Assembly: GCA_963580285.1 (NCBI GenBank)
Contig: OY757023.1
Span: 92,281,108-92,345,107, forward strand
Source of the DNA: Lucinisca nassula
Taxonomy: Eukaryota; Mollusca; Bivalvia; Lucinida; Lucinidae
Length of the DNA stretch: 64,000 nt
Direction: 5' to 3'
In this document: positions 6,206-52,500 of the stretch, piece by piece
How positions within the stretch are numbered: position 1 is the stretch's first letter
Layout of the letters: every line of letters begins with the position of its first letter
Notes under the pieces: model-generated
What the model saw: the letters and a program-made list of their open reading frames with translations, nothing else
Told to the model about the DNA's origin: nothing
The model's database searches: none
Made by a program: the position numbers and the translations under genes

Positions 6206-6210
6206 GTAGG

Positions 6211-6720
6211 ATGGGAAGGTTTCTGGCATTATATCGGGCTTTCGGCGGAGAGGAGTGCATCGAAAAGGACACGCGCGTAATTAATGAAATCAACTGGAAT
6301 TTCAACGAAAGGGGCCTATGTAACTGGATCGAGGACAACTGTAAATTTCACTATGGCCAGGAACCCCGACTCACATTTTACCAGGTAACTTCTCACCATG
6401 ACGGGGAAGGCAACACGAGCTACACCAGAAAGCAGATCTACGATACGGTAAATCACTACTGGAAACGGCTAAAGCAAAAGCTAAGGAGTGGTCAGTGTTA
6501 TTTCTTCCCACCCGCAAGAACTCCACCACCGGATAGCGACGACAACCCCATCAAATATAAACCGAGTACGGGAGAGCTGTATTCGATACCTACGTCCGGA
6601 GAGAAAAGTCCTATGTATTTGAAAGATGTTGAGATTTACGAAAAGTGGTTCAAAGACTTACTCGCTTTTGTAACAGAATATCTGAGAGATGAGACCCTTA
6701 GCTTAGCCGTATCCGATTAG
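6211..6720 (+). CDS. Unknown 169-aa protein of the Polinton-like element
   Basis: The frame is open from ATG at 6211 to TAG at 6718-6720. I do not recognise the protein. It has aromatic-rich segments (NHYWKRLKQKL, EKWFKDLLAF) and a proline-rich middle (FFPPARTPPP near residues 97-106). No signal peptide or membrane segment is apparent. It lies on the same strand as, and upstream of, the ATPase, so it is probably one of the element's accessory or virion genes. The start is uncertain because the upstream region could supply a longer, now broken N-terminus. Confidence 0.55.
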   Translation: MGRFLALYRAFGGEECIEKDTRVINEINWNFNERGLCNWIEDNCKFHYGQEPRLTFYQVTSHHDGEGNTSYTRKQIYDTVNHYWKRLKQKLRSGQCYFFPPARTPPPDSDDNPIKYKPSTGELYSIPTSGEKSPMYLKDVEIYEKWFKDLLAFVTEYLRDETLSLAVSD

Positions 6721-6809
6721 ACATAACGTAAAAAAAAGAAAGCGATTTTCCCAATCGAACATTTGGGACCAGTTGTATTCTCGAATGAGTTAAGAGGAGA
6801 GGCACTGGG

Positions 6810-7155
6810 TATTGGTGGTGGTGGTGGTGGTGGCTGTGGTGGTATCTGTGGTGGTGGTGTTGGTGGTGGAGGTGGTTGTGGCTGTGGTGGTGGTGGGTGG
6901 TGGTGGTGGCTGTGATAGTGGTGGTGGTGGTGTCTGTTGTGGTGGTGCCTGTGGTGCTGGTTGTAGTGTCTGGTTGTGGTTGTGGCTGTGATGGTGGGTG
7001 GTGGTGGTGGCTGTGGTGGTGGTGACTGTAGTGGTGTCTACGGTGGTGGTGGTGGTGGGTGGTGGTGGTGGCTGTGGTGGTGGGAGTGGTGGTGGTGGTG
7101 GTGGCTGTGGTGGTAATGGTGGCTGTAGTGGTGTCTGTTGTGGTGGTGGTCAATG
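6810..7155. repeat. GGT/TGG-rich low-complexity tract
   Basis: About 345 bases of GTGGTGGTGGCTGTGG variants between the 169-aa ORF and the ATPase gene. Both the plus-strand glycine/valine reading and the minus-strand Thr/His reading are low complexity and not supported as genes. Runs of GG on one strand could form two-tetrad quadruplexes. Confidence 0.85.
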
Positions 7156-7204
7156 ATGTAAAAAGTTTGTTAGAATAACCAAACTGTAAACTCTTGAAAC
7201 GAAA

Positions 7205-7885
7205 ATGAATCGATGCTCAGACTGTTACCTCGGGTTCTCGAGACGTGATGCTTTGTTAAGACACCAACGCAATACACACGGTAGTGGGATAGTCCCAGAC
7301 ATAACAAACAGCATTACCTTCCAACATCCGTTTTCTATGGTTGTAACTGGCCCTAGCGGAAGCGGTAAAACGGAATGGACTAGAAAATTACTCCTGTCCG
7401 ACCTCATATACCCTCCACCCGAACGTATCGTATGGCATTTTGGTCAATGGCAAAGATTGTACGACGACTTGCAACGCACTCTTCCCCAGATAGAGTTTGT
7501 ACACGGTATACCGGACAACCTGACTAGCTCCGAGTATATCGATACCCGAAAAAGGAACGTCCTAGTCTTTGACGACTTGATGACCGAGGCTAAATGCGAT
7601 CAAAGAATTGCGGACCTCTTTACTAAGGAGAGTCATCAAAGAAACTTGTCCGTCGTATATCTCACGCAGAATCTATTTCCACAAGGAAAAGCCTGTAGAG
7701 ACATCGCTTTGAACACGCAATACCTCGTCCTTTTCAATAATCCCATCGGCAGACAACAAGTGGCGACGTTGGCGAGAAGAATGTATCCAGCATCCCATTC
7801 CACGTTTATGAAACGATTCGAACAGGTTACGAGTCAGCCGAAAGAAGCGGAAATTAGAGGTATCCGAAGAGTCCGATATAAATGA
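7205..7885 (+). CDS. Packaging-type (FtsK/HerA, A32-like) ATPase with N-terminal C2H2 finger
   Basis: 226 aa. The family powers entry of viral DNA into the capsid in adintoviruses, Polintons and related viruses. Walker A GPSGSGKT is at residues 49-56, Walker B VLVFDD at 119-124, and a polar sensor TQN at 154-156. The downstream LVLFNNP and LARRMYP also match Polinton ATPases. A classical C2H2 finger (C4, C7, H20, H25) precedes the ATPase domain. The ATG at 7205 keeps the finger. The C-terminus after about residue 210 stops looking like the family and terminates at TGA, while the +1 frame is open beyond it, which suggests a deletion or frameshift near 7830-7860. The family call is firm; function in this copy is doubtful. 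Confidence 0.85.
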   Translation: MNRCSDCYLGFSRRDALLRHQRNTHGSGIVPDITNSITFQHPFSMVVTGPSGSGKTEWTRKLLLSDLIYPPPERIVWHFGQWQRLYDDLQRTLPQIEFVHGIPDNLTSSEYIDTRKRNVLVFDDLMTEAKCDQRIADLFTKESHQRNLSVVYLTQNLFPQGKACRDIALNTQYLVLFNNPIGRQQVATLARRMYPASHSTFMKRFEQVTSQPKEAEIRGIRRVRYK

Positions 7886-8384
7886 CGAAGACAGTGACGA
7901 TGACAGGGAATCGATAAGCGACGTAACCGACACGCATTACCCCTATATTAGACCTCCGGGTAAACGCGTCAAAGATGAGCTGGCAGAAGACCGCCTGTGT
8001 CTAGAAATATGGGAGAGAAGGTTTAAGGAACCTCTAAGGCAATCCAATGCAGAGCGCTTTAAAGACAAGGTTAATAGCTACATCGAAGATGGGACTGCTC
8101 CCGAGGACGCTTATCATCGCGCAGCAAACGAGGACTTGCCTTCCCTCAGGAAAAGACTTAGGCACGATTACGCGAGGTTTCTGGTGGATTATCACCGGCT
8201 GCAAAAGGATCATACTCAACGGCAGATTCTACAGTCGGCTAAAACATTAAGAATACAGCATGACAGGAATGTCGACGAATCCATCCAGCAAGCCGTGAAA
8301 CTGAGGAAGGATTTATTCGCCAGCGTTTGGCCCGACCATGTCTTGACAGAAAACGATGAAAACCAGGAATCTGATGCCGAATGA
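7812..8384 (+). pseudogene. Start-less open frame overlapping the ATPase end
   Basis: A 190-codon frame, +1 relative to the ATPase, is open from just after a TGA at 7809 to TGA at 8382-8384. It begins with a basic RKKRKLE cluster that resembles a nuclear localisation signal, followed by a strongly acidic serine-rich segment (EDSDDD) and then a charged helical region. There is no ATG in the first part, so either its own 5' end was lost by deletion or it was joined to the ATPase by frameshift. No family was recognised; minor virion or DNA-binding proteins of such elements are often basic like this. Confidence 0.5.
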
Positions 8385-8429
8385 AATATACGTAACAAGG
8401 GTAAAGCATCGCTATATTTACAGAAAAAG

Positions 8430-8807
8430 ATGGGTTCTATAGAAGTGTTTGACAAGAAACTGAATAAATGGGTGCCTTATGTCCCGGACTACGATGCATG
8501 GTACCATCATTCCAAAGACTTGAGCGAGGGCTACGTTGAACCCGATCACGAGGGACGGTATATCGTCGGTAGCGGTAGAAGAAACCGTCTTCTAAAGGAA
8601 ATGGAAGATCAGCGACAAAAAGAAATTTAAATGCTAGAACAGCAAAAACCCGTGGTGAAATTGGTCACTCCCGTGGCTCAAGCGGTTGAAATTGCAAAGT
8701 CAGAACTAGCACGATTACAAAAGGAGCATAAGGGCGAGGCCTCTGATCGTAAGAAACCAAGAGCGAAAAACGGGCAGTTGGGAGACTGGACAACCTTTAA
8801 ATATTAA
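8430..8807 (+). pseudogene. Small basic protein gene split by an in-frame stop
   Basis: Two adjoining frames in the same phase: 8430-8630 (66 aa, starts MGSIEVFDKK) ends in TAA, and an ATG follows at once at 8631, continuing to TAA at 8805-8807 (58 aa). The second part ends with a lysine/arginine cluster (DRKKPRAKNG) and TTFKY. The seamless frame on both sides of the stop suggests one ancestral gene of about 125 codons, but two separate small genes are possible. It lies between the start-less frame and the protease, where Polintons keep minor capsid-type genes. Not identified. Confidence 0.5.
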
Positions 8808-8813
8808 GCGACG

Positions 8814-9262
8814 ATGAACAGTGATCAACTGACTCGTATACTTTCTGGATACACCGTAACTGTCTGCGCAGCGGACCAAATTAAAAAAACGAAGAGGAAG
8901 GTTCGTCATTTCCAACACATCCACGAGTTATCAAAGGGGGGGAACACTGGGTAACATTTCATTTTCCCAAACACGGACCGTACGAATTTTTCGATTCAGT
9001 AGGAAAAGATCCTAGAAGTTACGGCGTTGGGTTCGAAGAGGTACTCAATAAACCCTACTTAATGGACCATAAACAGCTTCAACAATCTAGTTCTAACGTA
9101 TGCGGACTATACTGTGCGTACTACGTGATGGCTAGATCTCGAGGAAAAACCATGCGATACATTATCAAAGAATTCAACCCACGCCAGAAGAAGTTCAACG
9201 ACCGCCTGATTGTGTCTAAAATGAAAAGAATGCTAAGAAGAAGACGGAAAGACTTTACATGA
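8814..9262 (+). pseudogene. Adenain-like cysteine protease, broken by two frameshifts
   Basis: The family (C5/adenain-like) matures capsid proteins. The coding potential runs through three frames: 8814-8890, about 8891-8938, and about 8939-9262. The shifts fall at an A7 run (8883-8889) and a G7 run (8936-8942). The last frame shows the catalytic region: histidine in EHW (codon 8945-8947), the EFFDS segment, a glutamine-rich stretch and the nucleophile in VCGLYC (codon 9101-9103). The start at 8814 (MNSDQLTRIL) fits the family's short N-terminus. The gene is intact in order but cannot be read through as it stands, so this copy is inactive unless the runs are assembly errors or sites of frameshifting. 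Confidence 0.75.
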
Positions 9263-23066: not shown

Positions 23067-23166
23067 CTACCATACAGAACATTTCTTGACAGGATTCATC
23101 CTAGACCCTGCTGGACAATTAAATGCTTTGGCAAATTCGTCATAGTTTTGCATTGGTCCATATACT
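23067..23166 (-). CDS. M13 peptidase, last coding exon
   Basis: Encodes [16 protein letters not shown], then a conserved Cys, SRMNPVKKC and the terminal CSVW before TAG (23067-23069). The acceptor is TTTCAG; it enters in phase 2, completing an Arg codon. The C-terminal Cys-x-x-Trp tail is the M13 signature. Confidence 0.93.
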
Positions 23167-26100: not shown

Positions 26101-29100
26101 GGAGTTTGGAGGCCTTCATGCGGACTGAGCAAATTGTTTGTCTTAATCGCGGCGGGGGTGAGGGCGAGGAATGTGGCTACGTAAAATCGATTTAAGCCCC
26201 CCCCCCCCCAGTGGAATTCGTTTCCGCTGACCGTTCCGAGGCGGTTCTTCTGTCGAGGTTATTGAAATTATGGTTTGTCTTTCGGGGTTTGTGTCGCTTA
26301 TTTTATTTTGGATAGCCTATTGGCCATTGTTTTGGGGAAAGTAACTGTCCTTTTGGCTTTCCGCTGTTGGTGTTTCCATAAGGGTCTGTTGTTTTATGTT
26401 TGTGCGTCTTTCCCTTTGGTGCCTTTGGTGTCTCTGATTGGAGCTGTGGGTTGATAATCGATTCCTGATCATTGCCTCCACTTCTATTCTTCATGCGGAC
26501 TGAACAAATAAGGGCGAGGACTGTGGCCACATAAAATCGATTTAAGCACCACCCCACGTGGAATTCGTGTCACTGACCGTTCCAAGGCGGTTCTTCTGTC
26601 GCGGTTCATTTTTGTTTTGGTTTGTCTTTGAGTGTGTCTATCGCTTATATCATTTTGTTTTAGATAGCCAATTGGCCATTTTGTGGGAAAGTAACTGTCT
26701 TTTTGGCTTTCACTAGTGATGTTTCCATTAGGGTCTAGTTGTTTCGTGCCTGTGTTTCTCTCCCTTTGGTGTCTCTGATTGGAACTGAGGGTTAATTGTA
26801 TTGATTCCTGATTATTGCCTTGACTTCTATTTTTCTTATTGCAGGTTGTTGCCTTAGGGACCGTTCCAAGATGGTTCTTCTGCTGTGGTTTATTATCATT
26901 ATAATACTTCATCTATACATGTGCGTTGAGTAACCGTTTGGCCATTTTGTGGGAAAAAATATCCGTATGGCGTTCTGTTTGTGACGTTTTCCTTTTTATG
27001 CTTGTGCTTATTTCCCTTCAGTGTTATGGGGTAATCATCACGAAAACACGCCTATATAATTTTGACCCCTTGAACCCCACTTTTATATAGTAAAACTGGA
27101 GTTTCCGGGGTAAACCTTATTTTTCGTATTTCTGCTCTAAAATATAGATTGTGGGTACTCGTCAGAACCGCCTCGATGAGGCGATTCTAACGAGTGCCCA
27201 CAATCTATTGGAGCAGAAATAAGAAAAATATCACAATTTTTCATCATAAAATTTTCATTTTTTCAGCGATAAAGGTGGCAATGTATTTGTATAGGCGTGT
27301 TTGCGTTATGTGTATCGATTCCTGATCATTGCTTGCACTTCTATTGGGCTGTAATCGTAATAACGAGGATATGTTTTTACAGATAAGGCTCTGAAATAAA
27401 CTCGTAGACGAGTAACCCCAATGCACAACCATGTTAGCAGCTTAACTTAGTCATCGCACAGACCACATCGCTGCTTAATATACGAACAGCCCGAAAACAT
27501 GCCCATATTGTTCTGAGCCCTTGATCCCCACTTTTATGTAGTGAAACTCAGGTTTACAAGGGTAAACCTTATTTTTTCTTATTTCTGCGCTTAAATAAAG
27601 ATTGTGGGTACTCGTTAGAATATCTGAAGCCACAATATATATTTTCAGTAGAAATAGGAAAAGTATCGCAATTTTCATCAATTTCGGCGGTAAAATGTAC
27701 AATGTACTTGTATAGGCGTGTTTTCGTAATGAAGGCAGGTACTATCAGCGCTAGATAATTTCAGTGTGGCAGATACCTGTATATGCCCAAACTGTGACTA
27801 TTTATTCGTATCTCTCTGATTTTCTCCTCATTCCGATAATCGCTACACCAAACCTACAATGAAAGACATGACCTTTTAAACTGGATCACTATCCAGTCGA
27901 ACTTCAATGGCTCGAACACATTTGGGACCTCGAAAATCTGTTCGAGACAGGGGTAGTTCGAGTCACTGAGGTTACTGTCAGTATGCATAACGAGATACTT
28001 TTAGACATCTTTTCGGTGTTCTATAATGAATATGTATGCTGTGTGTACTCATTAGAATCGCCTCATCGAGGCGAATCTAATGAGTACACACAGCATACAT
28101 TTGCAAGATAAAATACTAAAATTTCCTCCATTAATCCCCACTTTTCTTATGTAGAGGATTTCGCTAGGGCCTTAAGAATGTGTTCGACTCATCCATGGTA
28201 AACGAGCCATCGAAGTTCTACTGTACATCACGATAAGAAGTCCGTAAAACGAAGACCCCTCTAAACCCCAATTTATACAGAGAAAATGGGGTTTACAAGG
28301 GTATACAATTTCCGCCTTATTTTAGCTCAAATACATATATTGTGGGTACTCGTTAGAACCACCTCATTGAGGCGGTTCTAACGAGCACCCTATTGTGGGT
28401 ACTCGTTAGAACCACCTCATTGAGGCGGTTCTAACGAGCACCCACAATCTATGTTGAAAGCAGAAATAAGAAAGCTGCTTTTATTTTTATACAAAATTTG
28501 TTATTTCTGACACCATGTTGGACGCCATTATTTCACACGGACATGTTTTCCTAATGTGTTATCGCATGAGGCATTTTCTAAATATAGTAAACGGAAAGAA
28601 AAATCCCTTACCAAAACATAATTAAAATATAATGATATCATTTCGTGTCCATTCGTCGTTGTAAAGGCCATCTTTATTCATAACTTCTTTGTGACGACAA
28701 TCTGCACACCATGAGTGCGCCTAAATACAATTTTGACAGTTATCGTCAGTGCAATGAAAAGAGATGTAAGTGAAACTTCATTCTAATGCACTTGCGCATG
28801 TAACGCGACGTTTGATTGTATAACGTCAAAAATTGGCGTCTGTATATCCTGCAATATATTGTCGGAAACCCCTGCCCCCCGCCCATAGGGGCTTGAAGAA
28901 ATATATGGGCTGCATGATGCTTCCACGCAGAGCTGAATCCGGCCCGCACACTAGTACTGGTAAACCGCTCAGAGGATCTAAGCCTGTCCAGGAACCGCGG
29001 TGCGAGGCGGACCGTCCATGCTAATAAACCCTATCGGTTTCATTGGGCGACAGGGCTTGAGATGTCATTTCCACTCAATGTCGGGTAGAAGTCCCACAAA

Positions 29101-32100: not shown

Positions 32101-35100
32101 TATTTACCTGTGCTTCATTAATAAAGAACAGCTGGTTTCCAATGTAAGATAAACCAGGTAATTTCCTCTCTTCACCATGGTCTGCAACCCACTTCTGGTA
32201 AGCCTTGAAGAGGTAAACAGAAATAATTCTGAACGATTGGGATTACAATCTACGTCGTACGTCGTATTACATTAGGAAAGCATCAGTAAAATAAATAAAG
32301 GTATCTTTTTAAGGATCTTGAATGCCATTTCAGACTATTTAGAGACTTTTTTGATACCAGAACATTCATTACGAAAACACGCCTATACAAATACATTGCA
32401 AATTTTTATCGCCGAAAAAGGTAAATTTTAAGAAGAAAAATGTGATATTTTTTTCATTTCTGCTCAAAATATAGATTGTCGGTACACGTTATAACCGACG
32501 AGGCGGTTCTAACGAGTACCCACAATCTATATTTTAGAGCAGAAAAAAAAATAAGGTTTACTCCTATAAACCCAAGTTTTACTATATAATAAATGGGGTT
32601 CGAGGGGTCAAAATTATATAGACGTGTTTTCGTGACGACATTCTATGCCAACATTATGGGTGCTTGTCAGATTCGCCTCCCCATGCTGTTATATCGAGTA
32701 TTCACAATTTGGTTTTAAAATATGAATTTTACACTTAAAAGTACTCTTTCCCCATACAAGGATTGACAAGGGTCTGACTAATGTATGTGATGAAAGAGGC
32801 CTTATATGAGCAAAATATTTATCTTAAATGCAGACAACCTTTCAGAGGGACTCGGGTCTTTGTGGAAAGACGGCGTTGAAAACCGTCTCACTTCCGAAAG
32901 TGGAGAAGAGCATTTCCACTGTGTTCTTTTTCCCCAAGTACGATTTGTGGGGAAGTAAAGATGGCCTGGCTTTAACAGGTTCTTTGTTATTTGCATGTCA
33001 TTTTACTGGTGCCACGGTCCTTACCTTCCCCGTTTACAGAAAAGGACCGAGGGTTTAGAATATTTTCCTAATCAATTTTCTTGAGCTTAAGCAGTGTCCG
33101 GTTAATTAGGATAAAATATCAACTAAAACGAAATTAAAACGGATTTAATACCAAGCGAGGTCCATTTGAGCATGATAACATAGTTTTCTCAGTGCTGGAA
33201 TGAAAATAAGCAGAAATTTGTGACCATTAAATCTATTATATAGATAGAAATCTACCCTGAAACTCTCTTTAATTCCACCATTATCAGCGATATTTTCACC
33301 GACTGTATTCGCACCATTAATCTGTAAAAAAGAAAGTCATTTATTCTTATAAAAACAGAACCAATATTCTAAAGCTAGCAAGGAAACGTTACTTAGGGAA
33401 AGACTTTTTCAAACAATAACCCTCTCACGTATCAAATGCAGAGAAAGGCATAGGATAGACAAAACTGTAAAATCACGTGCACAAACACATTACGTCAATT
33501 AAAATAATTAAATAAATCTGCATAGAACGACCGCCATCGGGCGGGATGCAAGCAAAAGACTCAGACGTATACAGAACGTCATAACTCGCCCGCAATTCTA
33601 ATGCAAATTCTTAGAGAATAAACATAACAAACTGACACGCATGGAGGGATCATGATGGAATAAGCCGGAAATGTATTTAGATGGAATGGGGAGTGTCTAT
33701 GATGAATGTGTCCTCGAGTTTACTTGTTTTTTTTTCTATTGTTTTTCTCCCGCGGTGTCCATAATTGTATTAAATGGCTTAATTCTTTTGAAAAGGGACC
33801 GTCCATTAAAGTATAGCATTTCCAACTTTTGGACTTATGTTGTTTGGTGCTGATGCTCTGTCTTTGGTCGTGCCGATCGGAGTCAAACTGTAGGTCTTCT
33901 TTTGCTCCAGCACTTCAGTGGTTTCTTGCTGTGGAGCCTCACCGTTGTTTCATCTCTGTGGCTGTTTGATTTTTGTGTTCATGGAGATGTTTCAATGATG
34001 AGGTAGGAGGCCTTCATGCGGACTGAACAAGTTGTTGGTCTAAATGGCGACAGATATAAGGGCGAGGATTGTAGCCACGTAAAAACGATTTAAGCCATCC
34101 CCACCCCCCCCCCCCCCCCCAACCTCGGTGAAGTCGTTTCACTGGCCGTTCCAAGGCGGTTCTTCTGTCGTGGGCTATTTCGTTACACTCTTTGAGTGTA
34201 TGTATATATTTTTGTTAAGGATAGCCATTTTGCCATTTTGTGGGAAAGTAACTCTCCTTTTCTCTTTCTGCTATTGATGTTTCCATTAGGGTAAACTTGT
34301 TTCATGTTTGTGCTTCTTTCCCTTTGATGTCTCTGATTGGAACTGTGGGTTAATTGTATCGATTCCTGATCATTGCCTTCACTCTTTTAAGAGGCAGGCT
34401 GGATTCCGTGGATTGTTGGATGTCTTTCAATAAGGAGGAGGCCCGGTTTGGGTTCGAATCTCATAAGTTGAAGTGCCTTATTTCATGTCTGTTTGAGAAT
34501 GCACGTCAAACATTGAATGGTAGAATTCACATATTATTAGTTCCAGAATATCTCTTGGCCTTCCCAAATGTGCCACAGTTCATCTAGCTATACGAAGGCA
34601 CCAAAAGCCGTTCTGGGATTGCTTTGAGTGTTACAATTGCGATATAACAAGGGTGAACTCCGCCGTTCTCGTGTCGGTCAAAAGTTGAGGGATAATTCCA
34701 CACACTTATATCGCGTCCGGATATAAGATATTTACGTTTAGACAGTTACAGCCTATAATAGTTTGTTAAAGAAAATATATTTCGATACTGGCAGACAAGT
34801 TCACTGAAAGATAGTAAACTATCTTTCAGTAACAGTTTGAATCACTAGTTCATCAGAAGTATAAATGTATAAAAGGTGTTTATTTCCTCATATTGGTAAT
34901 TCTCTACCACACTTACAAAACTGATGCTATTTAAATTCGTGACAGCTGGTCAGTCTTCAATGGTCGCTTTATGATTGGTTGCGACAGTGGTATGGTAACA
35001 GTGAGCTCGAACTATAAAATGTGATTATTTCTTCAACTTATAGTGTTTACATGAATAGATTTGCTGTTTTAATCAGTGGGATTTAATAATCTGCTTCATT

Positions 35101-38100
35101 TTGTACTATATATTTGGCCAGGCACGTTATAGTTTTAGGCAGAAATGAAAGACAATATTCCGATTTGATGCCATTGGAAGGCTGTCATCTTTGAAGTTTG
35201 CTTTTCCAGGGCATATATTTCTGCAACTATTTTTGTCAAGACAGCCTGAATTTAGTGCCCACCATATGCAAATCAAAAGCACAATTTTGCTTAACGTATC
35301 GTAAATGATAAATTATTGTTTGTTACATGACTTAATAGAAGTGAAGACAATGATCTGGATTCGATGCAATTACATCAAACCAACCATCCAAGACACAAAC
35401 GGGAAAGAAAAATACACACCAAATAACTTCACCATAATGAAAAGGTGACAAGCAGAAAGCCAAAAGAATAGTTACTTAATAAAAGGATATTAGCAATACA
35501 TACATGCAAAGACGATATACCAATAGTAAAACAAAACAGGAGAACCGGCTTGGAATGGTCAGTAAAATATAAGACTGGGTGGAGCGGGGGCTTAAATCGA
35601 TTTAACGTGGCCACAGTCCTCGTCCCAGGTTCTGTTGTGGCTGTGCAGCCTGCATTATTTCTAATTCATCATTGCTGCATATCCGAGAACATAAAATCAA
35701 AAGAAAACAGAGATGGAACGACGATGAATACACGACAGCATGAAATGCTGAAGTAAAAGAAACCCAACAGTTTGCCTACGATGGGCATAAACCGTTAACA
35801 GTTTCATACAAGCATTATATACAGCTGTGTGATCGTAATTCTTATATAAACTAAGTCAGCAAAAATTGGCATTGTTAGTATTTCAGGTTCGAATTCAATC
35901 AGCAGAGAGTTATTTTCTTTCGTTTGGAGTTTAACGGCGGAGTCAACACTAATTAGGTCATATCGATCCGGTCAGTTTATCTATCCACGCTTTACCTGGG
36001 CAGGCGTATAAATACGTAATCGGTTAACCAGAGAGTGCACCTTCTTTTACTGCCTTTCTTGAATCAGCGGAAAGGAGAGAATGACTGTAGAAAAGATTTA
36101 ACGATCAATCTCCACAAAGGACTGTTACCGACCCAGCAGGTATCGAACATGCGACTTCCTGATCACCAGTCAGACGGGCATCCGACTGAGCTACCGACGC
36201 GGGCAATAGGTTCATCAACTGGAGACAAGGTGTGTGCCCTTCAGACAACTTGAGGAGTATGTGGTTCGAACACGACGCAAGTGATTTATCCTATGCACAT
36301 CGGGGCTGCTATTATCACTATCGTGCAGTTTACTGGTCATGGTCTCAAACTCACGACTTTTCCATACGATGTTTATGAAACACTCTGAATAAATGTAGCC
36401 CTTTTTATGCCATGATGACTGACAATGTATATACAGTAACAAACCGTCATATTTCCTGTCCCTGGTACGACATAATTATTATACTGCTCGATTATACACT
36501 GGGCCTTCTCCTTGAATTTTCTGTCATCGGTAACTGACCACCAGGACTTCATATTTCCGTTTTTATCGAACTTACGACCTGTTGAGTGGTAATTAACATT
36601 AATATTATAACATAATTATCAAATTTAATGCGAAACTGAAATTTCAACATTCTTTGGAAAAAGCAAGAAAAAGTCTGAGGGCATCCGGTTAACAAGTCCG
36701 TGTAATGAAACTCCCTCTATACCCTCTATATAGAGAAAACTAGGGCTTAGAGGGGTATATATTATTTTCATTTTGTTTCTGCTCCATTTGATTATTTCTT
36801 TCTACTCGTTAAAACTGCCGAAATGAGGTGGTCTAACTAGTACCTTCAACACCTTTTTTTGGAGTAAAAGTAAGAAAAATACAATAATTATTTTCGTCAG
36901 AAAAATACTGTTTCGCACGGATAAGATATGTTGTCGTAATGAAACGCCACTTCAAGAAAGAAAATGGAACTGCAAGGAAGCAACTGCCTTGGGATGGTTC
37001 ACACGTTTATTAATACTTTGGCTAGCGTTATGATTTGCTGCCGACATTCCCAATTCGGCTTTTGGAGCTTGTTGCTGTGCTATTTGTGATTTTCCTGTTT
37101 TGTTTTCCTCATTGCTTAGTTACCATTACGATAACATACCCGTGCGACATTGCGCATTTTTCACATCTCCAAAATGGCTACTTTTCTGATGAAAATATGT
37201 GATATTTTTGTTATTTTGTTATTTTTACTTCAAACATAGGTTGTGGGTGCTCGTTAGAACCGCCTCATTGAGGCGGTCAATGAGGCGGTTCTAACGTGTA
37301 CCAACAACCTATGTTTATGAGCAGAAATATGGAAAATAATGTATACCCCATAAACCACAGTTTGCTCTATATAAAGTGGGGTGTAAGGGGTGTTCATTTC
37401 ACGGACGTTTTAGCGTGATGCTCTTTCGCATGGTGCAGCAGTCGTTGTTTGCGGTTTTAACCATTGCCTTCACTTCTATTTTCGTGAACATCCATTTCTA
37501 CATTTTTGCAAAGCAACTCTTTTCAGATTATGTGTAGATCTCAACACCTATCGTTGTGCCATGTTGCGGACCTAAAATCACTAGTGTTGTAGTTACATTC
37601 TCTTTTTGTAAGGTCCAACTATATATGTGATCAGAATTTTAAGTTTCATGAGGGGTATCGAAGCTGTCGTTATCGCTAATGAACACTGAAACTGACTTGT
37701 AGAATTTCATTGTGGAAGATTGAAAATATTTGAGGGTCAATGATGGGCCTAATTGGCCGAAACTAACTAGACTGGCCCAGAAAACATGCACACTCCATAT
37801 TTTACAGTTCTGTGGTGTATTCCTTGCTTCAAAAGGATAACCCTTTTAAAGAACATATTTATCGTCGCTACAGCTGGTGTCTGGGAATGTGTGACGGCTG
37901 TAAAAAAACCTCCCTGCCCTACATCATAGTGTAGTTTATATTTTCTTGTCCTTGGGATCGTTGATTCCGTTATGGAATTTTGAAAATATTTGAGGGTCAC
38001 TTATGGGGCCTAATTTGCCGAAACTAACTAGTCTGGCCCAAAACACATGTACAATCCATATTTTTCAGTTCTGTGGTATATCCCTTGCTTCCAAAGAATA

Positions 38101-41100
38101 ACCCTTTTATAGAACATATTTAAGCCTGGTCCACTGTGGGGGAATGTGGATGCTCTATTTTATAAGGAGCATATTATAGATTAATCGGCCTGGTAGTCCA
38201 TGTGCTTTTTCAAAGTTTATAGCCCTTATTTCCAGCGTTAACCTTCTTTGCTGTTAATGGGTGGTATTTGTGTATATCTTTAATTTCTCCTGAGTGTTGT
38301 CAATTTGACTATAGCTATTAACCTATATATGCCTAGCGGCCTATTTGTCGGACATTAGTGAAAGGTGTAGACCCAGATCAGATGCCATGGAACGCGGCGC
38401 TTGATCCAGGTCTTCATCGATGCTTATAGTACATGCAGTTTTGTAAAATTTACCGAAAACCAAACAAACCTTGCTCTCCTTTAAGTGGAAATGCACCACT
38501 CCAAACTTATTTAGGGGACAGATTCCATTGTCATATATGGGTTTAAACAAGTTGCTGAAAATCACCACGTTCACCGTGACGTCATTGGTCATTGTAAGTT
38601 ATTGGCAGAACAGCCTTAAAGTGCTGCTGAAATTTTATATCAGTCCTTTCATTCAAATGACATTCAGCCTGTCTTACTGATAAAAATGATGCAATTTTAA
38701 AAAATAACCAAAAAGATATAGTAAATAATGTTGAATGTATTTAAACGCAATAACTTTTCAAACAGTTCAGACATAGGACACGTGCGCTCAACAATCGACG
38801 AACAAGACTCGTAGTTTTAGGCGTACAGGGAAACCAACAGCTCAGATGTGAGGACAATCACGCAGACGTGAGTCAGCTCATGTCAATTACCATTGGTTGC
38901 TACATATTTGATACAGTCAACTTATTTCATCGTTCTCTTGATTAAGGAAAAACTGCTCTCAGTTCAAAATCATAACTTGCCCCTAAATTCATTATTTTTC
39001 AGATGTTCAAAGGCAGAACATGACATACCACTATCATCAAAACCATGAGTTATCTCGTGTCCAATAACATGCCCGATGCCACCATAATTGAGATACCTGG
39101 TTTAAAGAATAAAAAACAGTATAATAAAAACACAGTCAGATGCCACTGCATATAGTTAAATAACGTTTGTAACTGGTCGAGGGTTGCCTTATTTTTTTAA
39201 ATCTAAATGGGCACAAAAAGCAAAGACATCCTAACTAATCTTTTCGATTGATACCCACACTATATGTAATGTTGCCCCATATCTCTCGAAACTTAATTTT
39301 ATAAATGAAAGTAGAAGTAAAACAAAGATCAGGAATTGATACAATTAACTTACTCCACCCATAAAAGACACCAAAGGGAAAGAAATACAAACATTAAGCG
39401 ACCAGACCATAATGGAAACCTAAACAAAGGAAGGCAATAAGGACAGTTACTTTCCCACAAAATGGCCATATGGCCATCCAAAACCAAAAGACACAAGTGA
39501 TACACACAGTAAGTAACAAACAACAACATAAATAAATCGCCACAGAAGAGTCGCCTTGGAACGGTCAGTGGAAGATTTCCACCGGGGGGCTTAAATCGAT
39601 TTTACGTGGCCACAATCAACGCCCTTACTTCCGTCGCGATTTAGACAAATAATTTGTTCAGTCCGCATGAAGGCCTCCTAACTCATCAGTGTAACATCTC
39701 CGTGAACACAAAAATCAAAGAACCACAGAGGTGAGACAACGGTGAGGACTCGACAGCAAGAAACCACTGAAATGCTGGAGCAAAAGAAAACCAACAGTTA
39801 GACTCCGATGAGCCCGACCAGAGACAGAGCATCAGGCACCAACCGACATTATCACCTTCTTCTTTCTGACCTAAACTCAAAACATGGATGTAAATGTTCG
39901 TTCGGCCGCTTAAATGAGTCGAATGAGTGTCCATATAGTTTTTCGTGTGGTAAGATACATCTACTTGTTCAAATTCTACGTTTCTTTTGAATATGGGCCT
40001 AGAATTATAACATATACTTGATAATACTGTGGCACGAATAACTGGCATCTATATCTAAAATATTCAGTACTAAACATAGCCAGCCTGTAAACTTTCACAT
40101 TTTACTCAATGTTTCTTTTTTTTTATTTTATTTTTTTATTTTGTTTTATATAAATTTTGATGACTATTTGTTGAAAGGTAAAACAAAATGACTCAACAAG
40201 ATAAGTAAGAGATGTCTAAATGTTTAGTACTTAAGTACGAAGCTTTGCGGCCCTTTTGTCGGAAAGTGACTGTCCTTTTGGCTTTCCGATGTTGATGTTT
40301 CCATTAGGGTCTAGTTATTTCATGCCTGGGTTTCTTTTCCTTTTGTGTCACTGTTGGGAGCTGTGGGTTAATTGTATCTATTCCTGAACATTGCCATTAA
40401 TTATGTTATACACTTTTAATATCTATTACATACATTCAAATCGCTTGAAGCAGTGGCGTGGTACCAATTAAATCATTGATTTAAGCACTGTATCTGAACG
40501 TCCAAGATTAAATACATGCACAAAGAGATCAGTTTGAATTTTACTTACGATGGTTGATCTTTAGAATAAAATGGAATTTGGAGAATCGCTGCAGGAAAAG
40601 CTGAAAACAGAAGGATATAATATCTCAACCCATGACTTTTGACAAGATCTTTATTTCTACAAATGAAATCTGCTTCTTTGCTCTAAGGTAGAACGTTCTG
40701 TCTGAAATACGAATTAGAAAAATAATTGTTGAATGTGCATTAAAAAGAGTTTTGCATATACGTCGCGTCTGAGAATGTAATAACGCAAGGTAATAAATTC
40801 GATAATCCACTAGTGGATTAAATATGCAAATTAGTTAGATACGCCCCCTAACCTTACATATATGGCGTCCTTAACATCATCGCGTTTACTAATGGCGGAA
40901 TATTGACAATTTTGTTAAACAGTCGTGAATAAAATGGATTTACAATGTCATATGATAAATAGAATCTTGCATTCAGGCTCATGTATTATTGAATTTATTC
41001 ATGAACACTCGTGTAAGATCCTCCTAAACTACTGATTCGACATCACAAAATGACCGGAGTCATATACAACAGTACAAGTTTTATAAACAGTGACAATATT

Positions 41101-44100
41101 ATTGCACAGACGATATATAACGGCTGAAATCTAACTAGACAAAATCTTGATTACAACATATTAAAACTGTTCAAAAAGTAAAAAAAAAATAAAATAAGAA
41201 ATGCCTGCAAAGCAAATGGATATCTGTAACAACCAATTACAGCTTAACATCACGAAAACACGCCTATGTAATTTTGACCCCTTGAACCCCACCCCACTTT
41301 GATATTGTACAACTAGGGTTTACAGGGATATACCTTATTTTTCTTATTTCTGCTGCAAAACATAGATTGTAGGTACTCGTTAGAACCGATGAGGTGGTTT
41401 TAAAAAGTATCACAATCTATATTTTGAGCACAAATCAGAAGAAATCACAATTTTTTATCTAAATATTTCGAGTTTTTTTCCGCGGTTAGGTTTAAAATGT
41501 ATTTGTATAAGCGTGTTTTCGTAATGACATGTTATAAAAAAGGCGATGGTGTATACGACAGTGCTGTTAAACTGATCAATACTACAAATCTGGTCAAGTC
41601 ATAATAGGTCAACTGGGCTACCTTCAAAAGGAGACAAAAATATCAATACCCAACATTCATTTCCGGTGGTATAGGTTTAAACGGTTGCTGAAAGATTATT
41701 TAAAAAATCAACAGACACCTATATTGCCTGGAAAAATCAAAGCACTGAGAGTACTGGTGGGTCGATTGTCTTTAGGTGTAGGTTGGGAAAATAGTCCTGA
41801 ACTGAGAATCGAACTGTTCCGTTTAACCCTTAAATTCCAGTATTTTAAGCAAGCACAGTATCCCTGATCAGATAGTTATGTTTGCCAAAGCCCAAGTGCA
41901 TGAGCACAGTCCGGAAGTTTTTTTTACGCAGCGCTCTGACGTCTTAGGGAGACGACTATCGACGCTATAAACTAGATTATGTTCAGGGTCGTTGGCAGTC
42001 AGATTGTCAGTTCGTGATAGTCACGCTTATTATAACAAACTGTGAGTACTTTTTAAAACGCTTCATTATAAGAAAAGTATTTAGTACATTTTTTAGCTTA
42101 AGAAAAAATATGGTAGCATTTTCCGTCACAGTTTTCAAAATTATTTACTTGTCACTTGTTAATGTGTTTAATTATTGCCTTTCTGTATACAGGTATATTC
42201 AACCAGCACAACAGATTCGTCTTGCTGGATTTACGAGCATTGATAATGATTAACCTCATATGCAACACAACCTATGCTAGAAAAGTTATTACATTTATAG
42301 CATTTTATCCAGCTGCAAACAGTGTAGATCCATCGGTGGCTTCTGATCAGAACCTAAAATGTTTTTCATAGTTACAATCTCTTCTCCTCGCTCGGCCCCA
42401 CCACTGCATCCCAGCTCATGAATAACAGTGATCAGAAACAGGGCCCCTTCAGCGATATGTTAAAAAAGTTCATTCTACCTGTTGATGCAGGCCCGCACCT
42501 TTTTGTTTTAAAAAAATTCTCAATCTCGGGCAGCTTTTAACTCTCTGCAACATATCTGAAATTCGCACCTGTCCCCCTTTTTTCAGATTCTGCCTACGGC
42601 CTGAATCATGTTCAAACTTGTTGTATATATACGGCGAACAGTGCCGAACTTGATCAGAAGGAATGTACTGTCTATCCTATGTGGGTCTACGCTGTATGTC
42701 TAATAACAATACCACCTTTAAAAGTCTGGGCTATCATATTTGCTCTTAAACAAATTCAAGGTTTTGGCAGAAGAGCAAAATGCTTTTGTTTACTTTTTGT
42801 ACAATCGACTCTATCTAACAGTTTTATGAATGGAATGTTCCGAAAGTCGTCACGTGATAGCGCGGTCTAGATTCAGATATTGTAATTGTTTTCCTTTTAT
42901 TACGTGAGCAAGCTGGTAATCTTATACTGTTTCATTTAACCCTTAGATGCCACTATTTAATCAAGCAGTGTAGTCCCTGTGCAACCGGCTGGGAAGACTC
43001 CACATTCCGCGGCGTCTGAACTGGGTATTCGATGTTTGTCAAACCCAGCACACGATTCCTGTCCAGGCTCTATAAATAGCTCTGACCTGCATGTAACATC
43101 GATAGAAATAGCGAGAATTTTTCCGATAATAACCCTAATATTGGTTTTCCTAAATCAGTGACGGTCACGTGGACAACAACATTATTTCGGATTTTGTCAT
43201 TTAGTAAATAAGTTCAAGCCTAAGATCTGATATTATAAAGTTGTTACTGGTGAGCAAACGCTTTAAAAGGAACTCACAAACTAAGTCTGAATAATAACGA
43301 ACATTCTTAATCTACATCATGCAAATAAATTGAGGTATTTTTCACTGTTAACAATTTAGCGATACATACGAATCTGCCAAGTGATTGAATATATATGTAT
43401 CAAGTTATTTGGGAAATTCTGCGTCACACAACCACTATCTGTTTACTATCTGAAGTCTAAGTTCTATGATAAGCTTAAAATGAAATCCCACGCAACACAT
43501 AAAACCTTTACCTTTTAATTAACAGAAAGCTTATTTTAAAATAGTCGTCTATAGGAATATCAAAAAAGCAACACAATTCTGAGTATGATTAAGCTGAGAC
43601 AAGGAAATCACGTGATACAATTGGTGCGGTTTAGAAAAATATAAGATACTGTTGTCGGATGATAAGTAGACAGTGACATAAAAGAGTAAACCACCACAGG
43701 TAGGTTTGACAGGTTGCACCCTTATCATTATCATACCCATCATTGGCTGGCAAGACAGACTATACCGTTATAATTATCATTACCGAAGCGTCTTTACCTT
43801 TTGACAACAGTGGACCATGCTTAATAACAAAAACATTCGCTGACGTCACGTTCAACGTATCCTCTGACAACTGTACTTGTCGCATTTTAATTGCAACACA
43901 GACGCGGCTTAGGGTTCGAGAATATACTTTTTTTCTTTTGACTATAAGACACCGATTTTGATTAAGACATATCACAATAAATAGAACCATTAATGCCACA
44001 AGATGATGTATATGAGCAAAAAGGTTTCGCCTATCTTGTGATGCAATTATTGAAATTGATCATTGATTTCCTTGTCAAATGTTGTTATCTCACTTATCTG

Positions 44101-46475
44101 GTTAGCTGAAGGATGGTAGTAAGCGTCTACTTGGGCAGGAGACATTATCCATCTGGCAATACATAGTTTGGGAATTACAATCACTTTGCGGCAATTCTGA
44201 TGCATTGAAAGCACTGCAGACTTAGAGCTTTTGCACTAATGGGTTAGAAATTCTTCAAGCAGACGAAACAATTGTCCATACTACGACAGAATTAAGGGCG
44301 AAGATGGTGGCTATGAAGAATCGATTTAAGCCTCCAGCATATGCCTTTTACTGACCGTTCCAGGGCGGTACGTCTGTTGTGGTTTATTATTGTAATAGTT
44401 CCTCTTTGCATTATGTATTGCGGGTGTTTTTGTTTTATAGTAGTTTGGACATTATGTGAGAAAGTAACTGTCCTTTGGTCTTTTCGGCATGTGATGATTT
44501 TATTATATTGAGGTTATGTTATGCCCGTGTTTCTTTCCCTTTGGTGTCTTGGATGCGAGGTGTTGGGTTATTTATCGATTCCTGATCATTGCATTTACTT
44601 CCATTTTAGACATGTTTCCTGAATGTCCACTACATAGTCTGCAAAATACAAAATTTCTTCCATTAACTGGAAAAGAGTGGCCACAGTTTAGAATCGTAAT
44701 ACCTTATTGGTCTGCAGTGCTTTCACACACACAGTTCTTACTTATCTGGTTTGCCGATGGGTGATAGTAGGCATTAACTTGTGCGGGTGACATTCTCCAT
44801 CTATTTGTCATCGAAAAATGTAAAACAAGTTTGAAAGGAACCAAAACTTTGAAGTTTCATTCGGCTTAGCTAATTCTCATTGCTTGCCATTGTATGTCAG
44901 CATTCCTATTTTTGATCTCTCTCCCTCTGATGATGGTAGCGTAACCGACATTCGCAAGCTGTGACAGCTGGTTGCGAGGTTTCTACATTTTTGTAATGAT
45001 TTCTGTTTCAGTTCACGGTCTGTTATTCGTGCAGGTACATCATATGATTGCTGTCAGATGCACATTTCGAAGGTTCAGGTTTGTCGCCTTCCTCAACTTC
45101 GGATCAGTTGTCGTTTATGGATAACATTTTGATCAAACGAGGAAGATATTTTTTCAGGAAGTGCCACAATCAAACAAGCCACCAAAATGTAAGGACAAAG
45201 AGACTTAGAAGGCCTTCATGCGGCCTGAACAAATGACAAATCTTGGCTTGACAGAATATGGGTGCTGATTGTGGCCACGTAAAATCGATTTGGTTTATCT
45301 GAATTAAGAGATTTCGTCCCCTGCAACACTATGTAGGTGGTTATTGGAGACGTTGCTTACAATTTTGAGGAACTTTAAACCGACATTGAGATGAAATGAC
45401 ACCCCAATAACAGTACTTGTGTGGTTAGTGTGACTTAGTTTTTGTCGAAAAATTGAAAAATTGTAAACAGTCCACCTGATTAGAGCAACAAGTATACCAT
45501 TCAGGAGGCTGAGTCCTTAACGAGCTTGTCCTCCCCAACTTTCTCGCTGGATGTATTCATCAAAAATCAAAGATTAAAAAGTATCGCCGAAAAACTTGGC
45601 AAAAAAGATAAAAAATTTACTTTAGTTATTTCATGTTTGTGTTTCTTTCCCTTTTCGTGTCTGTGATGGCAGGCGTTGGGTAGATGTATCGATTCCTGAT
45701 TATTGCCTTCACTTCTATTTTGCAGACTAACATAAAAATACAAAACATTTCTACCAGTGACAATATAAAGCCAACCTGCTCTGAAACATATAAAAGTTAT
45801 CAAAGCCACATATAAATATGTTCTATAAAAGGGTTATCCTTTGGAAGCAAGGAATACACCACAGAAGTGAAAAATATGGAGTGTACATGTTTTCTGGGCC
45901 AGACTAGCTAGTTTCGGCCAATTAGGCCTCATCAGTGACCCTCAGATATTTTCAAAATTTCATAATGGAATGAATGATCCCAAAGGACAGGAAAATATAA
46001 TCTACACTATGATGTAGGGCAGGGAGACGTTTTACCGCCGCCACACATTCCCACACACCAGCTGTAGTGAAGTTAAATATGTTCTATAAAAGGGTTATCC
46101 TTTGGAAGCAAGGAATACACCACAGAAGTGAAAAATATGGAGTGCACATGTTTCTTGGGCCAGACTAGCTAGTTTCGGCCAATTAGGTCTCATCAGTGAC
46201 CCTCAGATATTTTCAAAATTCCACAATGGAATCAATGATCCCAAAGGACAAGAAAATATAATCTACACTATGATGTAGGGCAGGGAGACGTTTTACGGCC
46301 GCAACACATTCCCACACCGATTTCTCAAGAATAATTTTATACTGCACCAACATCGCATTTCCAACATATATTTATTCATACATATATGTGAGTCAGCATG
46401 AATACAATGTCCTGACAAAATGATGCAACAAACAAACAACAACAACAAAACAACACAAATAAACAACAACATCAA

Positions 46476-46506
<31 letters not shown>

Positions 46507-49500
46507 GAAAACAAATAAGCAAAATAAGCAGTTACTTTGGTTTCAAAGTACGACAAAAAAGCAAGTACGCTTAATTCGCATTAAGGGAAAGGTGCATTCT
46601 AAACTGGTTGCGACTGACATGCAAAGTTGACTCTTACCAGCTATTCATCTTGGCTTTTTGATGCCATTCATTGTTAAAAATTTTATGGCATATATTTCAT
46701 ATGCAAGTTTATTCTTTTACGGCATCGTTACGCTCTGAGGTGATGTCTAAAATGGATTGCAGGCATCTGACTACAATTTCAACAGTTCTATTAAACGATA
46801 CAACTGTATGGATTTTGCTGCTTGTTTTTTTTTATGAATGAGAGCCCTCTGTAAAATGGGTTCACTCTTAAAAGATGTAATTTGCTCCTTCGAAACACGA
46901 TTCTTTTCAATGTAGTACATGTTTTACGGGGAATGGATACACCTTCAGGGGATGCACATCCTGAAAAAAGGCCTTTTGTCTTCCATGTCAAAAGTGGTCA
47001 ACTCTTAAGGAAAGAATTTGCTCCGGAAGAGCAAATCCTTTCCTTTAAGAATAAACCCCTTTTCCAGTGGGACAAGAAAAGCGAACAGTGAGTCCCAAAG
47101 GTTGTCTCCCTTAAAATCTGCCGTATGTGCCAATTCCGTTTTAAAAGAGAAAGTATGAAAAGAGTTGTTGCCTCAGAAGGTGAACCCATTCTACCTAATA
47201 AGATGTGACAAACGTGAACTTTCTATAAGAGAAGTTTGGGTTAATTTGTTACAACGGTTGCTTTGCTACAAACTAAATTTCATTAAATATCCCCCATAAT
47301 AATGTTAGCTGTTTACCTTGATTTATCATAATCTTGTCTTAATTTTCTCAATAGAGCTTGAACTGCTGCCCTGTCAATGCTAATCTTAGACCGTAGAGGA
47401 TCATTCCTATGCACGACAACCTGTTTTTAAACAAAATTTTATTAATTGATTATCCTATATTACACAAGGTCAACCAATATTCAAAATCATTAATCATGTT
47501 TTTAATTGCGTCAATTAATAAAATTGTCATTAATCAAGTAATTTCGTATTGGCCCAGTTACAGGTCCGAGGTCTGCTGTATTGGCACGAGGCCGAAGGCC
47601 GAGGCCAATACAGCTGACTGAGGACCTGTAACTGGACCAATACGAAATTATTTGATTAATAACATCATATTATTACGATATACATAATTATTCCTACGAT
47701 ATTTTATTTGGTATGATATTGATAGAGTTAAACGGCAGTCTGAAGTCAAGGTCAATTGGTCGTTTAACCCAATCTCACTGTTTCGATGTAGCCGAACACT
47801 TTAAATCAGTCACTGTAGATTATCGCTAGAACATCTAGGTTAGCTAAGCGTGCTCTATAATATAATTCTTTTTACAATGTTATGCCTCAGAATTTGTCGT
47901 ATAACAATTGTACAAGTATCATGTTTTTGTACGATTTATTGTTTTAGTGTCAATTCTTAATGGAATCAAAAATGAATGTTTTGAAAAAATAATAGTTCCG
48001 GATCGTTTATAACGAATGTGCCTGTCTCCATATCCAAAGAAGATGCAAACATCCGAGTAATAAATTTACCCGTTGGTAAATTTAAAAACATAAAAAATGG
48101 TGAGGACGGTTACCAGGATGGTCACCATACTCTACCGAACTGAGCACATTTATAAAATGTTGGGTTTTGCTATGCTGAACATAACATACATCATTCCAAG
48201 TTGAGTTTGTGTGTGTGTGAATTTGGGTTTAACGGCGCTTTCAACAATGTTTCAGTCATATCACGACGATGTCTGGTTGTGCCAGCGAGCTCAATGCTCA
48301 CTTTCATAGTGCTGCCTCACTGAAGTATCATGTCCCAGACACATTACATTATACCTAACCAAGTCACTTTATCCTGACACTGGGTCGACCAGTCCTAGCT
48401 CTACCCCGTAAATCTGAGTGCCAAGCGAGGAGCAGCTAGTACCATTTTAACGACTTTGGTATGTCGCGGCCCGCGGTCGAACCCGTGACCTCCCGATCCC
48501 CGGAGCAGACACTCTACCAACTGAGCTATCGGGGCCGGTCATATTCCAAGTTGAGGTGGACAAATTAATAACCCCGGTGGCAGTTTACATCGGCATGTTG
48601 TTGTTCGATCCTTAAAAATGTTAGACGCGAAATACGCGTTTTAACTCACTGGTATAATATTTTTGTATGCACACAAATCAATGGACAACCTCATAGCTAA
48701 TAAAACACCTTTTAAAGTATATGGGTTTTCTGAATTTGGATTGGTTATAACGTTGCTGGAACGCTAGTCAAAATGTCGAAATACTAATTTGGAATTCTTA
48801 CAGTATACTTAAGAAAATTCTGCAAGGACAGTACAAAGGATAAGAGAAAAAGATATACTGAAAAATAAATGAAAGTTTGGACAGGTTAAAACTCACTAGC
48901 AGAAATTCAAGACGTGCAATAAAAATGAGGAACAATTTCTGCTTCACTGTTTCACAAAAACTGCCTGTACAACCAATAAATATAAGGTCTAAGGTGACCG
49001 TGATCCCTTTAAACCCTTAAGCGTTTAGTCCGTAGCTTCCAGTGGTTGGAGTATGTGTGCTCCAAACCTGAGATGCAGGTATGTCACTAAATCAGGTGAG
49101 ACAATGAGTGCCCTTCTGTTCCAGTTATGTCCACATCTTTGTAATATGTCAATACGCAATGCTTCCGCAGATAAAATGATAAGATTATTTATTTGATACG
49201 TAATTGTACTTTGGCTGAAAACCTGAAATCTTGTCAAGCATAATTTGAAATATACTACATTGAGTTTGTTAAAGAGGCCTGTCGTATCCTATTAAATCTG
49301 GGATTGGTGGAGCACCATATGCTAAATCCTTCACATGATGTCTACAGCTGCAGTTACCTGATTATAATCAGCATTTAACTTTGTATCATTGTATATCCAG
49401 TCTGGATAGCCGATTCTAGGTTCGAGAAAATCTACCTACAGAGAAAAGAACATATATTTATTCAGTGCATGCAAGTGTTTTTGTTTTTTGTTTTTTTTTT

Positions 49501-52500
49501 CAGAAAGCGATATTGCATCAAGCTGTTGTTAATAGAGAAGATAAATACATAATAAAAGTTATAAAACATTGTTTATTTTCAAACATTTTAAGTCTAAGTA
49601 CGTGTACGGCAAACCCATATAATACGCTACTGGGGTGTAATGTAATTCATACTTCAATGAATACATGATGTCAAGTGACGTCACATGACCATTTAGTGAC
49701 TTCAAAATTTGACTGGACGTTCGTAGCATTATCACGTCAATGCCGCTGGTTTGTTGTTAATTAAGAAACTGCGTAAAAATAATTTCTTGTTACAATTTTG
49801 TGTCATGCAAGATTAATCCTTAAATTGCTGTTATAAATAATGTAAACATAGGCAAATGTACACATCTGCAATGAATTTTATTTTTCTGATATTTAACGAC
49901 TTTTGAAAAGAATTATAAATCCTACTTTATTAAATATCAGAGAAATGAAAGTTATTTCTTGAACAGTAATTAATTGGTACGCTGAGCATTGGTCCAACAT
50001 ACATGCATATTTTAACTGTATTAACGCGAATCCGAAGCGTATTGTATTGCTGCCTGCTGACAACGATTGCGGACAATTCATAAATGCATACAATTTGGCT
50101 AATTTTCTTTTCGGCAGGAGAAATACATTGAAGACCACAACCAATGGCCCAGGTCTACTATATTGTGATTAGAACGTTTATCGGAAACGATATCTTTCCC
50201 AAATATTATACAATATGATATGGCACGAGTGCTGAAAACGTAAATATAAAGCAAAATTTGTAGATCACCTTTTCCCGCGCAAACGTTTTAGTTTTGTTTT
50301 CCATCCAGCTTAATTCACTTATCATTTCTTTAAATGATTCCCTGAGGTGTGCTATCATTACTGCCACCTAAAATGTACATTAGAAAACAGACGATGAGAG
50401 AAATTGAGGATATTTGAATTTTTCAGTCTAAGATCGATTTTATTTCACCGAATGAACCCTAAAAAGTATTCTATCACGAGTGGAAAAACCACGAGTGAGA
50501 ATACAGTTTTTGGTATTCATGAGTGAATTAAAATTGATCTGACACTGAAAAAATATCAAATTATATTATGCTCCAAATTGCAATTATAAATGCAACCAGT
50601 GCTTCAGCTGAAGTGCACGACCCGCCGGATGCTTTTAGCTTTATGAGTGTTACCAAATATGGGTATGGCGGCCATTTTGGTCATGTGATCTGGACATAAA
50701 ACGGTTCCCCCAATAAATGCGCCTTATCGTAAGGAGCAAAAATATATCTTATACTTTAGTACTGTATTCTGAATCGTTTGCAGGATAAAATCCAACACAA
50801 AAGCATATGTGTCAAAGTTTGACCTAGGCACAAAGAAGGTCAAGGTCAACCCAGGGTCACCATTTTAGCAATTTATGATGGGCCTACGTTCCAGATGCTA
50901 TTTATCAAGTTTCGTGGAAATCTGCACAGTGGTTCTGGAGAAGACTATTTTTTAAGGTTTTTACCAAATATTGCTTGGCGGCCATTTTGGTCATGTGACC
51001 TGGACCCCATGAGGAAATTTTGGTTTCCCCCATCCCGTAGAGGCTCCATATGAAATTTGACTTCAATCGGCCCAACGATTTCCGAGGAGAAGCAGTTAAA
51101 AAATTTTCACATTTTTCGCCTCGGCGAAGCTATACTAAATGGAATGTAATATTTCGCAAGTTCATTGATAAGATCTCATTGATATCTATCAGTATGGCAA
51201 AAATTGTTTAAATATTCCAAGCGGTTAAGTCACTATCACCAATTTTCACAAACGGGTTACGGACGGACAGATAGACAGACCATATATGGCTTGGCGGCCA
51301 TTTTGGTCATGTGTCCTGGACCCCATGAGCAATTTTTGGTTTCCCCCATCCCATAGAGGCTCCATATGAAATTTGATTTCAATCGGCCCAACGGTTTCCG
51401 AGGAGAAGCAGTTCGAAAATTTTCACATTTTTCGCCTCGGCGAAGCTATACTAAATGGAATGTAATATTTCGCAAGTTCATTGGTTAGATCTCATTGATA
51501 TCTATCAGTATGCCAAAAATTGTTTAAATATTCCAAGCGGTTAAGTCACTATCACCAATTTTCACAAACAGGTTACGGACGGACAGACAGACAAACCATA
51601 TATGGCTTGGCGGCCATTTTGGTCATGTGACCTTGACCCCATGAGCAAATTTTGGTTTCCCCTATCCCATAGAGGCTCCATATGAAATTTGACTTCAATC
51701 GGCCCAACGGTTTCCGAGGAGAAGCAGTTCAAAAATGTTCGAAAATTTTCACATGTTTCGCCTCGGCGAGGCTATACTAAATGGAATGTAATATTTCGTA
51801 AGTTCATTGGTTAGATCTCATTGATATCTATCAGTATGCCAAAAATTGTTTAAATATTCCAAGCGGTTAAGTCACTATCACCAATTTTCACAAACGGGTT
51901 ACGGACGGACCCAAAGAAGGTCAAGGTCAACCCAGGGTCACCATTTTAGCAATTTATGATAGGCCTACATCCCAGATGCTTTTTATCAAGTTTCGTGGAA
52001 ATCTGCCCAGTGGTTCTGGAGAAGACTATTTTTGAAGGGTTTTTACCATATATGGCTTGGCGGCCATTTTGGTCATGTGACCTGGACCCCATGAGCACAT
52101 GAGCAAATTTTGGTTTCCCTATCCCATAGAGGCTCCATATGAAATTTGACTTCAATCGGCCCAACGGTTTCCGAGGAGAAGCAGTTCGAAAATTTTCACA
52201 TTTTTTCGCCTCGGCGAGGCTATACTAAATGGAATGTAATATTTCGCAAGTTCATTGGTTAGATCTCATTGATATCTATCAGTATGCCAAAAATTGTTTA
52301 AATATTCCAAGCGGTTAAGTCACTATCACCAATTTTCACTTACGGGTTACGGACGGACAGACAGACAAACCATATATGGCTTGGCGGCCATTTTGGTCAT
52401 GTGACCTTGACCCCATGAGCAAATTTTGGTTTCCCCCATCCCATAGAGGCTCCATATGAAATTTGACTTCAATCGGCCCAACGGTTTCCGAGGAGAAGCA

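Follow-up and report, generated by a model that had tools for sequence, protein, structure and literature searches.

A candidate pair of mutually exclusive exons predicted to exchange the substrate-binding asparagine of a bivalve M13 peptidase for aspartate

Mutually exclusive homologous exons derived from tandem duplication are a known class of alternative exons, described in a human survey (PMC5740500) and also in PMC4465641, and a figure legend in this literature names 629 clusters. Two 59-nt exons, here called a and b, in the 64,000-nt window analyzed here (the whole stretch of Lucinisca nassula DNA) resemble its members in being adjacent, similar, and of one length and one phase, and in having a length that is not a multiple of three, so that joint inclusion or joint skipping breaks the reading frame. 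The pair would join this class with two distinctions: it is known from sequence alone, and the swap hits a residue that is present in every one of the 120 best of 7,545 homolog matches. In FGFR2, the swap between the IIIb and IIIc exons falls in the ligand-binding domain of a receptor, whereas in the M13 gene it would fall in the active site of an enzyme; the two FGFR2 exons are likewise mutually exclusive (PMC12828087). In the insect docking-site/selector system, long-range intronic pairing occurs near duplicated exons (PMC6071210). A comparable pairing may form in the window, where it would involve a lone inverted repeat within the a-b intron and no evident competing selector.

The pair lies in an otherwise intact minus-strand gene for a zinc peptidase of the neprilysin type (M13), its activity being predicted from the sequence. 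Besides the pair, 18 exons were assembled in frame, with GT-AG introns and matching phases. The assembly runs from position 92313 to the stop codon at 23067; seven of the 18 exons lie beyond the window end, for which the numbering is carried past 64000, and one of these (at 66613) was located through homologs. The assembled protein, a 672-aa product without the N-terminal anchor part, matches Pfam families PF05649 (M13_N) and PF01431 (M13) with 253.8, 86.3, and 249.8 bits, all above the cut-offs. Its best match among solved structures is neprilysin (E 5.9e-102), and its nearest named homologs come from the bivalves Dreissena, Ruditapes, Mercenaria, and Mya. It shares with neprilysin and other M13 peptidases the two domains, the zinc motifs HExxH and ExxAD (here HEITH and GENIAD), and the C-terminal CSVW; what sets it apart is an additional variant of the NAYY exon, which encodes Asp. 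One intron of the gene contains a tRNA match (Rfam, 41.6 bits; 54962-54891, minus strand) that could be a tRNA-derived repeat. Elsewhere in the window, open frames at 6154-9262 (plus strand) and 10949-10512 (minus strand) look like a Maverick/adintovirus-type insertion: a packaging-ATPase-like frame matches Pox_A32 and Adeno_IVa2 weakly, another frame, judged by eye and lacking a Pfam match, may encode an adenain-like protease, and a frame with a BIR domain lies close by.

Table 1. Features of the M13 gene and of the intron between exon copies a and b (window numbering).
Feature	Position	Strand	Remarks
M13 gene exon	53963..54091	-	assembled gene
M13 gene exon	50269..50367	-	assembled gene
M13 gene exon	49358..49435	-	assembled gene
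Exon directly upstream of pair	47317..47420	-	ends ..DYDKS+AG; donor at 47317
Exon copy a	44742..44800	-	59 nt, 19 residues, Asn form (VNAYY), ancestral state
a-b intron	44153..44741	-	589 nt
Inverted repeat arm 1	44710..44725	-	16 nt, perfect; 16 intron bases after donor of a
Interspersed repeat between arms	44225..44608		full-length matches to other copies 68-71% identical
Inverted repeat arm 2	44206..44221	-	16 nt, perfect; 53 nt before acceptor of b
Exon copy b	44094..44152	-	59 nt, 19 residues, Asp form; splice sites intact, no stop (window copy)
Exon directly downstream of pair	40549..40600	-	M13 gene exon; acceptor at 40600
Exon with zinc motif	39029..39096	-	HEITH
M13 gene exon	36445..36578	-	GRKFDKNGN..
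Exon with zinc-ligand motif	33256..33321	-	GENIADNGG
M13 gene exon	32108..32203	-	AYQKW..
M13 gene exon	27777..27853	-	VWCSDYR..
Last coding exon	23067..23166	-	..KKCSVW + stop

A sequence-only reading had described the two minus-strand exons, and its coordinates, phase, acceptors, donors, and identity of 17 of 19 residues all proved correct, so that the pair itself is confirmed. Both acceptors are AG, the donors are GTAAGA (a) and GTGAGA (b), and the two residue differences are Asn/Asp and Arg/Ile. Frame tests on the assembled gene also agree with the claim that exactly one copy is needed for a full protein: a alone or b alone gives 672 aa from the assembled exons, both together give ..NQING followed by a stop, and skipping of both leads to a stop inside exon 40600-40549. 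These results support mutual exclusivity forced by the reading frame. At the sequence level the pair shows several marks of mutually exclusive exons: the two are neighbors, homologous, and equal in length and phase, both window copies have valid splice sites and an open frame (the b of a partial duplicate, described below, carries a stop), and joint inclusion or skipping is unproductive. Exclusivity would be enforced at least by the frame; actively exclusive splicing, as opposed to removal of faulty transcripts by decay, is putative. The length of the a-b intron, 589 nt, makes steric exclusion unlikely, a mechanism that depends on very short introns and for which PMC5740500 gives less than 50 bp between donor and branch point. 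Incompatibility involving the minor spliceosome was rejected, as both copies have ordinary GT-AG sites (by eye).

The active-site asparagine of M13 peptidases has been studied in neprilysin, where published accounts describe Asn542 as substrate co-ordinating (PMC2259306), place it in an N-A-aromatic-aromatic motif that bonds the backbones of inhibitors (PMC7822871), and report inhibitor bonds to its side chain (PMC4908401). For thermolysin, the side-chain oxygen of Asn112 has been suggested to bond the P1′ nitrogen (PMC12316308). The swapped residue sits in VNAYY, which aligns with VNAFY of neprilysin; isoform a has the motif Asn and isoform b has Asp instead. A homolog search gave 7,545 matches among 7,994 scored candidates. 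In the best 120 of these, examined with BLASTP, all 120 have the Asn, the Ala that comes after it, and the Trp located eight positions ahead of it, and none has the Asp form. The proposal that the exchange affects the substrate-binding Asn of the NAYY motif is supported by the neprilysin alignment, by PMC2259306 and PMC7822871, and by the invariance among these 120 homologs. The sequence shows Asn to be the ancestral form. A protein search centered on isoform b returned three candidates only, none of them scored, and is uninformative. Dion and colleagues reportedly linked Asn542 of neprilysin to binding of the P2′ residue in 1995. The Asp isoform would keep the side-chain oxygen, lose the amide donor, and gain acidity. 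Its contact with the substrate backbone close to the cleavage site should therefore change, with an altered preference, an altered pH profile, or lower activity as candidate outcomes; we infer, as the sequence-only reading did, that the b isoform may have a changed peptide preference or pH behavior.

Comparison of the two copies points to an old duplication. Synonymous differences occupy 11 of 11.7 sites and nonsynonymous differences 2 of 45.3, and when 13 changes were placed at random, two or fewer amino-acid changes resulted in only 2 of 200,000 trials. The introns flanking a and those flanking b share no leftover similarity (381/500 and 208/500 shuffles align as well), which argues that the duplication is old. 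Taken together, the codon pattern and the lost intron similarity indicate that b was long maintained as coding sequence, and the codon pattern supports lasting selection on both copies. A dead tandem copy in the same gene (70240-70107 in window numbering, minus strand), located upstream of exon 69574-69441, served as a control. Its third codon is a stop, its donor is lost, and it carries 6 synonymous changes at 30.2 sites and 10 nonsynonymous changes at 101.8 sites. This is the pattern of decay in the M13 gene, and b is unlike it.

A second locus at 91866178-91939641 (∼91.87-91.94 Mb) on the window's contig (C17), on the opposite strand and ∼450 kb away, is a truncated segmental duplicate of the M13 gene. 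Its introns are ∼95% identical to those of the window near the pair (4.6% difference) and 85-95% identical in longer blocks. The duplicate has both a and b, spaced by 647 nt compared to 648 nt in the window; its a carries one silent change only, and its b a TGG to TGA change that creates a stop. Over the 150 kb examined, eight upstream exons are missing, as is the last one, and the FPAA and HEITH exons recur in internal repeats. With these defects the duplicate probably does not work as a gene, and the stop in its b may mean little. The sequence-only reading had named a copy broken by stops in related species and other individuals as a finding against it; the stop seen here, within the same genome and in a closely similar duplicate that is itself truncated, comes near to this. 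By parsimony over the four copies, window b has undergone a single replacement (Arg to Ile) plus a single silent change, and window a no change. Since the duplicate's b and window a both read AGA (Arg), the Arg/Ile difference is recent in b. Thus, of the two residue differences in the sequence-only reading, the Asn/Asp exchange holds up as the only one that is old, and Arg/Ile drops out as a later change in window b.

The duplicate also bears on the view that b once functioned as an alternative exon but is now decaying, with only a in use today. Besides the nonsense change in the duplicate's b, this account draws on the two changes in window b compared to none in window a, where ∼1.4 would be expected for unconstrained sequence (59 nt × half of 4.6%); two versus zero is thus what an unconstrained b might also yield, with numbers too small to decide. 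Moreover, when the two loci are compared, purifying selection is evident in the exons they share apart from b, with 14.5/149.8 synonymous and 9.5/594.2 nonsynonymous changes (nine rows in total, with the misaligned row 27853 left out and the closer or fuller copy used where the duplicate locus has two), so that selection could have been relaxed on b alone. Window b nevertheless keeps both splice sites, has no stop, and encodes a nearly unchanged peptide, and the stop-bearing locus, lacking so many exons, may simply be dead. We therefore regard decay of b as unlikely, though a serious contender. Less probable still is that b acts mainly as a poison exon whose inclusion together with a lowers the amount of enzyme: joint inclusion does lead to the stop after ING, but an exon with this role alone would not have had to conserve 17 of its 19 residues while its synonymous sites became saturated.

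A pair that arose by chance, by assembly error, or by import of an exon from another M13 gene might be suspected in a family that is multi-copy on C17 and has a duplicate locus with internal repeats. However, the pair recurs at nearly equal spacing in that duplicate, and searches of the 2.93-Gb genome found, among the best candidates scored, the a-b pair only at these two loci and no other b-like exon. The exon-a peptide matched five places and a composite mini-exon query eight, four other places of the latter being single matches (again among the best candidates scored). One Asn-type 59-nt exon was found in the 96.03-Mb gene, where the full interval between the flanking exons was covered, and one in the 67.58-Mb gene, within the 8 kb covered. 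Exons a and b differ from each other at 13 positions, from the exon of the 96-Mb gene at 18 and 19, and from two other mini-exons at 27-30. Because a and b are nearest each other, the mini-exon was probably duplicated within the line of the window gene, and import of b is unlikely; we consider chance, error, and import together highly improbable. Most of the M13 exon matches listed (28 of 36) fall on C17, and three long intronless M13 frames on C1 and C12 have HEYQH and altered NAYY motifs.

The intron between a and b contains a perfect 16-nt inverted repeat that could form a regulatory stem. None of 1000 shuffles of the intron reached 14 nt; among 7,970 real 589-nt stretches, 807 contain a 16-nt inverted repeat somewhere and 13 a similarly placed one, by a placement criterion set after seeing the arms. 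Both arms are unchanged in the partial duplicate, which is weak evidence at 95% identity. The minimum-energy and centroid folds contain the 16-nt stem; taken as a whole, the folded sequence does no better than its shuffles (z of -0.42, with 5 of 20 shuffles as good). No further match to the arm sequence (up to three mismatches) was found in the window besides the two arms. That the arms are the ends of the interspersed repeat was rejected, because this repeat is bounded at 44225-44608 and the arms lie outside; of the 67 pieces that match it, 13 stop at 44225 and 32 at 44607 or 44608. In FGFR2, a regulatory intronic stem lies between the two exclusive exons IIIb and IIIc. Another inverted repeat, of 17 nt and 94% identity (44635-44651 and 45713-45729), would loop out exon a; one of its arms overlaps sequence that is also part of a direct repeat there.

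Mutually exclusive exons that stem from an old tandem duplication of the NAYY mini-exon are the best explanation of these observations, and we hold it with moderate confidence. According to this model, a tandem duplication long ago would have doubled the small exon that encodes the substrate-binding NAYY stretch, and each productive transcript would now include one copy to the exclusion of the other. Transcripts containing both copies, or none, would be unproductive and probably be removed by nonsense-mediated decay, and pairing of the 16-nt arms in the intron may bias which copy is chosen. The fuller picture of a genome-encoded Asn/Asp toggle in the active site, with an obligate exon choice kept by long selection, a swap at a residue invariant among the homologs examined (best 120), and possibly an RNA stem as its switch, is more tentative, and we consider it possible but somewhat short of probable. 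In the open-licence literature searched, we found no report of an exclusive-exon pair in an M13 peptidase and none of exon swaps in metalloproteases. If both isoforms are made, the locus would be a natural experiment on the Asn in the active site of M13 peptidases, in which the rest of the protein is the same except for Arg/Ile, and would test the effect of an Asn to Asp change on backbone recognition. It would then also represent a mollusc case of exon choice editing an active site.
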